A stretch of DNA of 64,000 nucleotides from Verrucomicrobiia bacterium (lineage in GTDB: Bacteria; Verrucomicrobiota; Verrucomicrobiia; Verrucomicrobiales; DEV007), in NCBI GenBank assembly GCA_030427505.1, contig JAUICH010000013.1:62001-126000 (forward strand). The letters run 5' to 3'. The notes under the pieces were generated by a model, which was given only the letters and a program-made list of their open reading frames with translations, searched no databases and was not told the DNA's origin. The position numbers and the translations under genes were made by a program. Shown here piece after piece: positions 15,622 through 19,100 of the stretch. The number at the start of each line of letters is the position of its first letter. Within the stretch, counting starts at the first letter, position 1.

Positions 15622-15897
15622 CTAGGGCTGGTTCAATAAATAGGCGGGACGGCGCGCGAGGCGCATGGGCCCGCTGGCAAGGAGAGAGTGAGGCGCTGAT
15701 GGGAGGCATCAGTAACGAGCGAACGACGCCGCCCAGGTGGCCCATGCGCCCGCGCCCGAAGGGTTGGGCCCCTTTTTTCGCCCCGCTACGTTGCCGCTCC
15801 CGCCGTGATGATTCAATCATCTCTGGTCGCGGCGCCTTGCGGGGGGCGAAAAAATGTCCTCCAACGCCGCCCCGCCTATTTATTGAACCAGCCCTAG
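15622..15897. mobile_element. 276-bp MITE-like element with 33-bp terminal inverted repeats
   Basis: The left end (15622-15654) and right end (15865-15897) are inverted copies over 33 bp with one mismatch; the core is GGGCTGGTTCAATAAATAGG. Both ends carry CTAG, so either a TA or a CTAG target duplication is possible. Inside are perfect stems: an 11-bp stem (15661-15671 with 15739-15749) enclosing a CTGATG/CATCAG hairpin (15696-15712), a 12-bp stem TTTTTTCGCCCC (15773-15784 with 15843-15854), and a 15-nt palindrome GATGATTCAATCATC (15807-15821). No credible protein is encoded. The right end contains the TAG stop of the RND transporter gene. It looks like a non-autonomous transposable element or a structured intergenic repeat. 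Confidence 0.75.
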
Positions 15898-18800
15898 GGC
15901 CCAGCCTCGGCCAACTCCTTCTGAGAAGGCACATCCGGCTCCGGAAGGGTTTCTTCGTGGGAAGCTTCCCACCAGCGGGCCAGTTCTTCCAGGATGACGA
16001 ACACCCCGGGAATGAGGATGAGCACCACGACGGCGGAAACCAGCGTACCCATGCCCAGGGAAATCGCCATGGGCACCAGGAAGAGCGCCTGGCTGGACGT
16101 CTCGAACATCATGGGAGCCAGTCCCAGGAAGGTGGTTAAAGAAGTCAGCAGGATGGGCCGGAACCGGCGCAGGGCCGCCCCGGCGGTCACCTCGTGGGCC
16201 TCGAACCGGCCTTCCTCCAGGTAGCGGTTGCGGGTGATGGCCAGCACGAAACCGCCGTTCACCACCATCCCGCACAGGGCGATCATGCCGAAAATGCTGA
16301 AGATGCTGAGATCGAAGCCAAACCACACGTGCCCCACCACGGCGCCGGCGAGACTCCAGGGAATGGCCAGCAGCACCACCACGGACTGCACGTAGCTTCT
16401 CAGGAACGAGGCCATGATCGCGAAAATCGCGAAGAGCGAAGCAATGAGGCCAACGGACAGCTCATGCATGGCTTCCCGCTGATCCCGTTGTTCGCCTTCA
16501 AAACTGAAGCGCAGGCCGGGAAATTTCTTCAGAATGCCGGGTAGATCGTTCTTTTCGAAAGCAGACAGGATCTTGTTCGCGTTGTTGACCCCCGGTATGA
16601 CGTTGGCGGTGACGTTCAGCACCCGTCCTCCGTCCACGCGCTCGATGCGGACGGGGGCCGTGGCGCGGGTGATCACGGCCGCTTCCGAAATGGGGATCTC
16701 GCCTCCGTCCGGCGTGCGGATGAGCAGGTTTTCCAGGCCCGCCATGGAGCGCCGGTCTTCTTCGGGCAGCTTCACCATGACGCGCAGTTCGTCCTGGCCC
16801 CGGGGTTGCCGCAAGGCCTCCGCGCCGTAGAAGGAGTTCCGGATCTGAGCGCCCAACTGGCGGGCGGTGACTCCCAGGCTGCGGGCTTCGGGTTTGATCT
16901 CGAAACTGATCTGCGGCATTTCCCGTCCGAACCCTTTCCGGATGTCTTCCACTCCAGGATAGTGGGCCACCGCTTCCGCCACATCCGCCGCCGCGTGCTG
17001 GAGGGTTTCTACTTCCGGATGGGCCAGCAGGATGTCCACTTCCGCCTCGCCTCCGGGGCCAAAGAGGTAGTCGAAGAAGATGGACTCCAGATCCGGGATG
17101 GGGGCGATGTGTTCGCGCCACACGTCCGCGAAGTGCTGACCGGACGTTTCGCGTTCGCTCTGTGGTACCAGAGTGACGGCCACTTCCGCGGTATTGCTGG
17201 AGTTCTCCGCCACTTCCACCAGGATGCCGACGGTGATGTCTTGCTCGTCCAGCGAAGCCAGGGCCCGCTTCGCGGCTTCTTCCACTTGGAAGGCCACTTC
17301 GCGGGTGCGGTCCACCGACGTGCCGGACGGCATCTCGATCTCCGCCTGGATGAAGTCCGTCTCGATGGTGGGGCGGAAAGTGAAGTCGATCCGTCCGCTC
17401 ATCATGTAGGCGATCACCAAGGCGAGGGCAGCCACGAAGAGGGACACCGTGACGTAGCGGAAGCGGATAGCCGTTTCGAGTACCGGGCGGTAGAGCCGCT
17501 CCATCAGCCGGTCCAGTTTCTCGCGAAAGCGGGACTGGGCGGCGTCGAAAACGGCGAAGAGGGTTCTGCCTTTGCCGTCCGCCCGCTTTCTGGAAAAAGC
17601 CAGGTGAGACGGCAGAATGAGCAGACATTCCACCAGAGAAACGGTGAACACCGCGATCACCACGGCGGGCAGCACGATGAAGAACCGGCCGCTTTCTCCA
17701 GGCACGAACAGGAGGGGAAGGAAGGCGATGATGTTAGTCGACACCGCGAAGATCACCGGCACCGTCATCTGCTTCACGCCCGCCACCGCCGCCTGGGCGC
17801 GGGTCATGCCTTCGGACATCTTGTGAAAGATGTCTTCCCCCACCACCACGGCATCGTCCACCACGATGCCCAGAGTGACGATGAAGCCGAAGAGCGAAAT
17901 CATGTTGATGGTGGAGTCCATCAGCGGCAGGAGGATGAGCGAGCCGATGATGGAGACGGGAATGCCAATGGCGGTCCAGAAGGCAATTCTCAGTTCCAGG
18001 AACAGGCCCAGCGCCAGCAGGACCAGGAGCAGGCCCGCCGTGCCATTCTGGAGGAGCAACTGAAGACGTTCCTGATAGTCCTGGGAACGGTCGCGGGACA
18101 GCGTCATCCGCACGGAGTCCGGCAGGTTGGGACGCTCCCGGTCGATGAAACGGCGCACCGCGGCGGCGACTTCCAGCGGCGGCTGGTTTTCCGCGCTGAA
18201 GACAGAGATGAACACGGCCCGGCGGCCATTGAAATACACCTCGCGCTCGGATTCTTCAAACCCGTCTGTAATTTTGGCGATGTCCGCCAGGCGCACTTTG
18301 GAACCGGTTTCGTTGCTGAGGATGGAAATCTCCCCAAATTCGTGGGCAAAGTCCCGCCGTTCCGTGGTCTTGAGCAGGATCTCGCCGGCATCCGTGCGCA
18401 GGGTTCCGGCGGGCACGTCCAGAGCGGCTTCATCGATGGCGTCCGCCACGTCGCCCAAGGTCAGGCCGAGGGAACGAAGCTTTTCCTGCGGCGCTTCCAC
18501 GATAATCTCCGGACGGCGGTCGCCGCGAATGTCGACGATGGAGATTTCCGGTTCCGCGAGCAGACTGTCCTCAAGTTGCCGGGCGTAGTCGATCAAGGTG
18601 CGCTCGTCCAGATCGCCATAGACGGCGATGTTCATGACCTCCCGGCGGCGGCCCGAGCTCAGGGAAATGGTGGGCGGTTCCACTTCGTCCGGAAACAGGC
18701 TGATGCGCTGGATAGCGGAGGTCACCTCCTGCAGGGCGCGGTTCCGGTCGAAGCCGGGCATGATCTCGATGGTCACGTTGGCGCTGCCTTCGCTGGCCCG

Positions 18801-19100
18801 CGCCTCCAGCCGCCGCACGAGTTCCAGGCCCCGCAGCTCGGATTCGATGGGGAGCACCACGGACCGCTCCACCTCTTCCGGGCTGGCGCCCCGGTAGCTC
18901 ATGCGAACATCCACCTCGTCCAGCGCGAAGGAGGGATAGACCTCTTGCTTGATCTGGCCCGCCACCACGATACCGGTCGCCACCACGGCGATCATGAGGA
19001 GGTTGGACGCCACATGATTTCGTGCGAACCAAGCGAGGAGACCGCCGGTTTCGTCAGCCGCAGCACCCCGGGCGGCGATGTCAGAGTTTGGGGAACTCAT
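15894..19100 (-). CDS. RND efflux transporter, inner-membrane pump
   Basis: A 1068-aa pump of the AcrB/MdtB type (hydrophobe/amphiphile efflux-like). Twelve transmembrane helices are arranged as 1+5 and 1+5 with two large periplasmic loops: helix 1 (NLLMIAVVATGIVVAG), loop with YRGASPEEVERSVVLPIE, and helix 4 with the proton-relay motif GIVVDDAVVVGEDI. The duplicated half begins near FRYVTVSLFVAALAL. Cytoplasmic tail ends in a Pro/Glu-rich segment. The start ATG overlaps the stop of the adaptor gene (ATGA, 19097-19100), so it is translationally coupled. Its stop codon lies within the right terminal repeat of the 276-bp element. The substrate is not predictable. Confidence 0.95.
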   Translation of the reverse strand: MSSPNSDIAARGAAADETGGLLAWFARNHVASNLLMIAVVATGIVVAGQIKQEVYPSFALDEVDVRMSYRGASPEEVERSVVLPIESELRGLELVRRLEARASEGSANVTIEIMPGFDRNRALQEVTSAIQRISLFPDEVEPPTISLSSGRRREVMNIAVYGDLDERTLIDYARQLEDSLLAEPEISIVDIRGDRRPEIIVEAPQEKLRSLGLTLGDVADAIDEAALDVPAGTLRTDAGEILLKTTERRDFAHEFGEISILSNETGSKVRLADIAKITDGFEESEREVYFNGRRAVFISVFSAENQPPLEVAAAVRRFIDRERPNLPDSVRMTLSRDRSQDYQERLQLLLQNGTAGLLLVLLALGLFLELRIAFWTAIGIPVSIIGSLILLPLMDSTINMISLFGFIVTLGIVVDDAVVVGEDIFHKMSEGMTRAQAAVAGVKQMTVPVIFAVSTNIIAFLPLLFVPGESGRFFIVLPAVVIAVFTVSLVECLLILPSHLAFSRKRADGKGRTLFAVFDAAQSRFREKLDRLMERLYRPVLETAIRFRYVTVSLFVAALALVIAYMMSGRIDFTFRPTIETDFIQAEIEMPSGTSVDRTREVAFQVEEAAKRALASLDEQDITVGILVEVAENSSNTAEVAVTLVPQSERETSGQHFADVWREHIAPIPDLESIFFDYLFGPGGEAEVDILLAHPEVETLQHAAADVAEAVAHYPGVEDIRKGFGREMPQISFEIKPEARSLGVTARQLGAQIRNSFYGAEALRQPRGQDELRVMVKLPEEDRRSMAGLENLLIRTPDGGEIPISEAAVITRATAPVRIERVDGGRVLNVTANVIPGVNNANKILSAFEKNDLPGILKKFPGLRFSFEGEQRDQREAMHELSVGLIASLFAIFAIMASFLRSYVQSVVVLLAIPWSLAGAVVGHVWFGFDLSIFSIFGMIALCGMVVNGGFVLAITRNRYLEEGRFEAHEVTAGAALRRFRPILLTSLTTFLGLAPMMFETSSQALFLVPMAISLGMGTLVSAVVVLILIPGVFVILEELARWWEASHEETLPEPDVPSQKELAEAGP

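Follow-up and report, generated by a model that had tools for sequence, protein, structure and literature searches.

The analysed window, a stretch of 64,000 nucleotides, carries a structured element of 276 bp at the 3' end of a gene for an AcrB-type transporter encoded on the minus strand. The element consists of two terminal inverted repeats (TIRs) that enclose two copies of a hairpin module, of which the second is inverted relative to the first (Table 1).

Table 1. Features of the element and of the adjacent transporter gene in the window.
Feature	Position	Strand	Basis
AcrB/D/F-type (RND) transporter gene, its TAG stop (15894-15896) being the presumed insertion target	15894..19100	-	PF00873, E 2.8e-167
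Whole putative MITE of family A, outer CTAG included	15622..15897	.	TIR complementarity 32/33; found at 13 places of the own genome
Left terminal inverted repeat, CTAGGGCTGGTTCAATAAATAGGCGGGACGGCG	15622..15654	+	Inverted-repeat and edge comparison
Right terminal inverted repeat	15865..15897	-	Inverted-repeat and edge comparison
Left putative target remnant, CTAG (YTAR, TA duplicated)	15622..15625	.	Edge pattern, 22 two-ended copies of four families
Right putative target remnant, CTAG, including the minus-strand TAG stop of the AcrB-type gene	15894..15897	.	
Hairpin module copy 1, diverged	15664..15745	+	Covariance model R2, 42.2 bits
Linker between the modules, with CGCCCGAAGGGTTG	15746..15771	+	CGCCCGAAGGGTTG likewise joins two modules in relative G008 (L050/L244)
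Hairpin module copy 2, near consensus	15772..15853	-	Covariance model R2, 75.6 bits, E 1.1e-18

The original prediction of inverted ends of 33 bp with one mismatch and CTAG at both outer edges was confirmed. The outer 33 positions are complementary at 32, and the longer arms of 40 nt (15622-15661 and 15858-15897) are complementary at 90%. A search of the window with the end sequence, allowing up to three mismatches, gave two matches while 0.01 were expected. The nested stems and the 15-nt palindrome (gatgattcaatcatc) that had been noticed inside the element could also be located, including one stem of 18 nt (15660-15677/15733-15750, 89% paired) and one of 12 nt (15773-15784/15843-15854, 100%). 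The folding energy of the element was -167.5 kcal/mol, compared to -117.3 +/- 5 for shuffled sequences (z = -10.0, none of 200 shuffles being as good). As had been supposed, no believable protein is encoded, and the overlapping frames of 119 and 146 aa showed no family match in Pfam. Rfam gave no match up to E 1 across the part of the window holding the element. A length below 500 bp, TIRs of 33 bp and the absence of a Pfam match are all in agreement with a MITE. A single weak site for an intrinsic terminator within the element was rejected, its T-run being on the wrong side of the main stem.

Searching the genome of origin (6.4 Mb, 56 contigs) with the whole element recovered it once in full, and five other contigs gave strong partial matches. 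A sequence profile of the ends of this family, designated family A, revealed 15 ends (E <= 0.006), which are distributed over 13 places, confirming the further copies that had been anticipated in this genome. The expectation that they would be near-identical was only partly borne out: copies occur at many places, but few are two-ended and most are one-ended remnants. Besides the element of the window, the two-ended copies are a large one of about 180 bp on contig C45, which lacks module copy 1, and a tiny mini-copy on contig C12. All the others retain one outer end and an interior of variable length. This set of dispersed copies (276 and ~180 bp, one mini-copy and truncated ones) is as expected for a MITE. 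The truncated copies often keep only 17-34 bp inside the outer end, and such short ones are more frequent than expected from random truncation of 276 bp. A comparison with other Verrucomicrobiota had been proposed along with the prediction; family-A ends were found neither in 95 relatives, which include no other species of the same genus, nor in another 386 genomes from the order, and 387 further genomes of the phylum yielded one weak partial end match. With the patterns used, no family-A copies were found in plasmids, IMG/VR or GTDB contigs. Since most copies are one-ended remnants and no intact family-A transposase was found in the assembly, family A is old.

The outer edges of family A read CTAG or TTAG. 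In 22 two-ended copies of family A and of the three sister families B-D described below, the outer base of the left edge is Y in all 22 and is followed by TA in 18, while at the right edge TA and R are each present in 21 of the same 22. The outer bases of the two sides vary independently (TTAG...CTAG, CTAG...CTAA), and a YTAR site of which TA is duplicated is therefore the simplest reading. The copies thus occupy YTAR sites, with CTAG preferred. The target duplication expected of a MITE would be reflected here in the CTAG on both sides, and in the TA at most edges of the 22 copies. The CTAG and TA flanks regarded as a sign of mobility in the original prediction are thus found in family A, whose edges lie in YTAR/CTAG. 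Without the element the minus strand would read GGGCC-CTAG-CATC. The AcrB-type gene has its stop codon in the TAG of the right-edge CTAG and is therefore unharmed; insertion into CTAG would have regenerated this stop. At C19:15068 and C6:161668 the adjacent reading frame likewise appears to stop at the TAG of the element.

At least three further families with CTAG edges are present in the same genome, namely B (~219 bp), C (~202 bp) and D (~218 bp). Family B has the ends CTAGGCAGTGTGGACAAATTGG and occurs at C30:33928-34149 (L086), at C6:751385-751603 and at about 30 other places. Its module pattern was found 33 times in this genome (one probably unrelated), and as several copies fall at contig ends, family B likely breaks the assembly. 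In one case, referred to as IS B (C48:24429-25294; L174:953-1818), family-B inverted repeats span 866 bp around an IS5-family transposase. The encoded protein matches NF033580 (transpos_IS5_3 kind, E 1.2e-66), and its frame does not cover the first ~30 residues of that model. At its C-terminus (...SYRRVATRYDKLAETYMGFVTLSAIVDWIKSEFVHSA) the last codons enter the end of the element, and CTAG provides the stop. Pieces of IS B were also seen at the ends of contigs C13, C40 and C54. Families B and C stand head to tail with a single common CTAG at C6:65356-65772 and 426038-426454, suggesting that the edge of one element can be the target of another. An unrelated-looking inverted repeat family (ACCACAGAGGACACGGAG...) is located at C6:635239-635798, 645356-645808 and 365149-365325.

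For family A, a single A-type end at C19:6561-6580 is preceded by a degenerate transposase C-terminus (...FRAVATRYDKTDLMFLSALTLTAIVDYIN, a stop, DLLNQP and a second stop). This relic runs precisely up to the A-type edge, where CTAG supplies its TAG stop, in the same frame and spacing as in IS B. In the end-flank set, its ~28 aa matched four transposases of the IS5 type, the best of them with 65% over 26 aa (38.1 bits, E 2e-6), while the best shuffled query reached 25.8 bits. This agreement in frame, spacing and sequence connects the family-A ends with a now decayed member of the IS5 family. Related ISs in other genomes (L177, L194, L195, L199) also start with TAG; their ends begin with TAGG or TAGA, and their flanks read YTA...TAR or nearly so. 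The transposases whose ends match or are related belong to the IS5 family (NF033580, PF01609). Both features of an IS5 derivation, a DDE transposase of the IS5 type linked to the ends and a YTAR target, are accordingly present. Of the related transposase with the same ends that had been foreseen, a C-terminal IS5-type relic was recovered at one A-type end, but no intact family-A transposase; a search with the end profile and an IS5 transposase model did not find an autonomous element with intact family-A ends in this genome. The IS5-type gene at C28:8854-9500 (L173) was rejected as the family-A transposase, as it lies outside the adjoining A-type end, is frameshifted and has no matching TIRs.

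Agreement between the relic and the MITE is confined to the outer ~20 bp, which the left TIR has in common with C19:6561-6580, and the covariance model of the module did not find it in IS B. For both reasons the interior of the element is not IS-derived. The module comprises about 82 nt with an 11-bp stem, a loop AAGGCGCGAgGAgGGAG, an inner hairpin of 6 bp and a loop GACcGAcGAGCAACGcAG. Families A, B, C and D have different ends and this hairpin in common, with internal loops that are alike and stems that differ. A covariance model was built from 13 sequences, in which 14 of the 17 pairs showed double changes. With 43 sequences, 228 double-change cells were counted against 75.3 +/- 7.4 after shuffling, and the covariation score was 0.761 against 0.211 shuffled, slid controls giving at most 0.292. 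Between genera, the stems are entirely different but the internal loops are conserved, and in seven of seven types the register of the inner hairpin is kept within 1-3 nt despite its differing sequence.

Scanning 1.64 Mb of the own genome gave 46 module matches, of which 42 are no more than 200 bp away from an end of family A, B, C or D. Across genomes, the module was detected in 52 of 142 (own included), representing 18 of 37 genera, and it nearly always lay within MITEs. Many of these genomes contain it repeatedly, the scored copies numbering up to 32 or more in a single genome. The best loci are mostly elements of 160-275 bp with TIRs of their own, which differ in sequence (CTAGTGGTCCGCC, TAGGGGGTGTGGACAAATT, CTAGTGTGGTG, GAGCCTGTTGAAAAACC, GAACCTGTTTGGATAAAAAC, AGAAGCCATCTCATAAACCCC and others). 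In relative G008, two modules are arranged as in the element of the window and joined by the same linker. In some relatives (e.g. L245, L247, L248, L257, L259, L263), a second stretch beyond the module, GGCCGCAGCCCGAAGGGG ... GGCGAAGCCGC, is also alike despite different ends. Two weak matches in relatives (L051, L052) were discarded as coding-like DNA without the layout of an element. No true match was obtained in viral contigs, plasmids and phages, and Rfam gave nothing plausible at the modules of 19 loci. On the AAGGCGC strand, G-U and A-C cells stand at 47:16 between families, in an alignment fitted by the model, and at 16:9 within families; the excess between families would be suggestive of an RNA of one strand, whereas that within families is not decisive. 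With crude gene calls, this strand is more often antisense to co-directional flanking genes (18:5, p 0.011).

A type II MITE is a non-autonomous element that has only its ends in common with a transposon. The element of the window is very probably of this type, with IS5-type ends and moved in trans, its interior being a conserved hairpin core that was reframed by different ends. Both readings offered by the original prediction, a MITE or a structured intergenic repeat, hold. Not visible to the original prediction, the interior is a module that is also found in MITEs with quite different ends. In the course of events suggested by these comparisons, a DDE transposase of the IS5 family (transpos_IS5_3 kind) would have mobilised the element in trans with duplication of TA. 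Insertion into the CTAG overlapping the TAG stop of the AcrB-type gene would have restored the stop codon. The module may represent a conserved core that was repeatedly framed by different transposon ends, with selection presumably keeping its fold and not the sequence of its stems. The folded strand probably helps the element to persist or spread.

Two other origins of the ends were considered. The presence of TA at both edges could point to an IS630/Tc1-type MITE, but this is highly improbable, as the TA lies inside YTAR and IS5-family transposases are the ones found with matching or related ends. A repeat of the REP/BIME kind, mobilised by a RAYT tyrosine transposase, would likewise be palindromic and extragenic with a TAG-containing tetranucleotide at its edge, and GTAG-type REPs have been reported in Verrucomicrobia (PMC3733652). 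REP/BIMEs are, however, palindromes of 20-40 bp with a GTAG foot and a linked RAYT, while here neither end is itself a hairpin of 20-40 nt and the ends pair with each other. The element is not composed of single short hairpins, its YTAG edges behave as target, and the transposase tied to the ends is an IS5-family DDE enzyme and not a tyrosine transposase, making this origin extremely unlikely.

As for the interior of such an IS5-type MITE, we tentatively propose, as a possibility short of an even chance, that the ~82-nt hairpin functions as a structured RNA or single-stranded DNA and is the true hereditary core of a bacterial MITE superfamily. Its ends would have been repeatedly exchanged, so that it was moved by different transposases, and its conserved loops would bind a common host or element factor. 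The covariation of the stems could partly stem from palindrome arms copying each other in replication, as long inverted repeats are known to be homogenised by arm-to-arm template switching. Taken further, the covariation would be a by-product of this quasi-palindrome correction, the loops would be alike by descent only and the core would be functionless. The changes within families, which look near neutral, are in line with this, and arm-to-arm copying is a serious alternative source of covariation. It gives no explanation for loops that are conserved between genera while stems change completely, nor does it fit with the inner hairpin keeping its register in all seven types, and a functionless core is considered rather unlikely. 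Alternatively, the module could be a host-encoded structured RNA or regulatory element merely picked up by MITEs, acting here mainly on the AcrB-type mRNA through 3' end stability or attenuation. The module structure is conserved, a strong fold directly follows the stop codon on the transcribed strand, and transcripts of MITEs, which in bacteria are IS-derived, have been reported to fold and to act on adjacent genes (PMC3733652, PMC10969869). Against this, the closeness of module matches to A-D ends in the 1.64 Mb scanned leaves no host-only locus evident, no Rfam family matches, and the module is more often antisense to co-directional flanking genes by the crude gene calls. We regard this origin as improbable.

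Among known systems, the element is comparable to IS5-family ISs (NF033580) and their MITEs, in which, as in family A, the ends start with TAGG(G/C) and the target is YTAR/CTAG. A cognate transposase in the same genome is a further likeness, clear in sister family B, while one family-A end adjoins a C-terminal relic. The differences are an interior with nothing in common beyond ~20 bp of the end, and family-A ends for which no matching element was found elsewhere. Geobacter repeats may look similar as well. The Chunjie MITE of Geobacter uraniireducens (235 bp, PMC10969869), compared by description only, resembles the element in size, TIRs, many partial copies and a mostly intergenic location. 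NEMIS/Correia, ERIC, RUP and QMITE2 are also small, palindromic, non-coding and intergenic (PMC3733652, PMC10969869). IS5 has the target motif YTAR with a 4-bp TSD (PMC10359306), while here only TA is identical on both sides in all cases. A limited literature search found no report of a core common to MITEs with different ends. To our knowledge, no account exists of MITEs that differ widely in their ends yet share one interior hairpin whose conservation is shown by covariation.

MITEs are usually viewed as shrunken transposons that are defined by their ends only. Here the ends vary and an interior with covarying stems is kept across a bacterial order. The covariance model of the module can be applied to any genome. 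A functional role of the core would account for these MITEs being folded and numerous.
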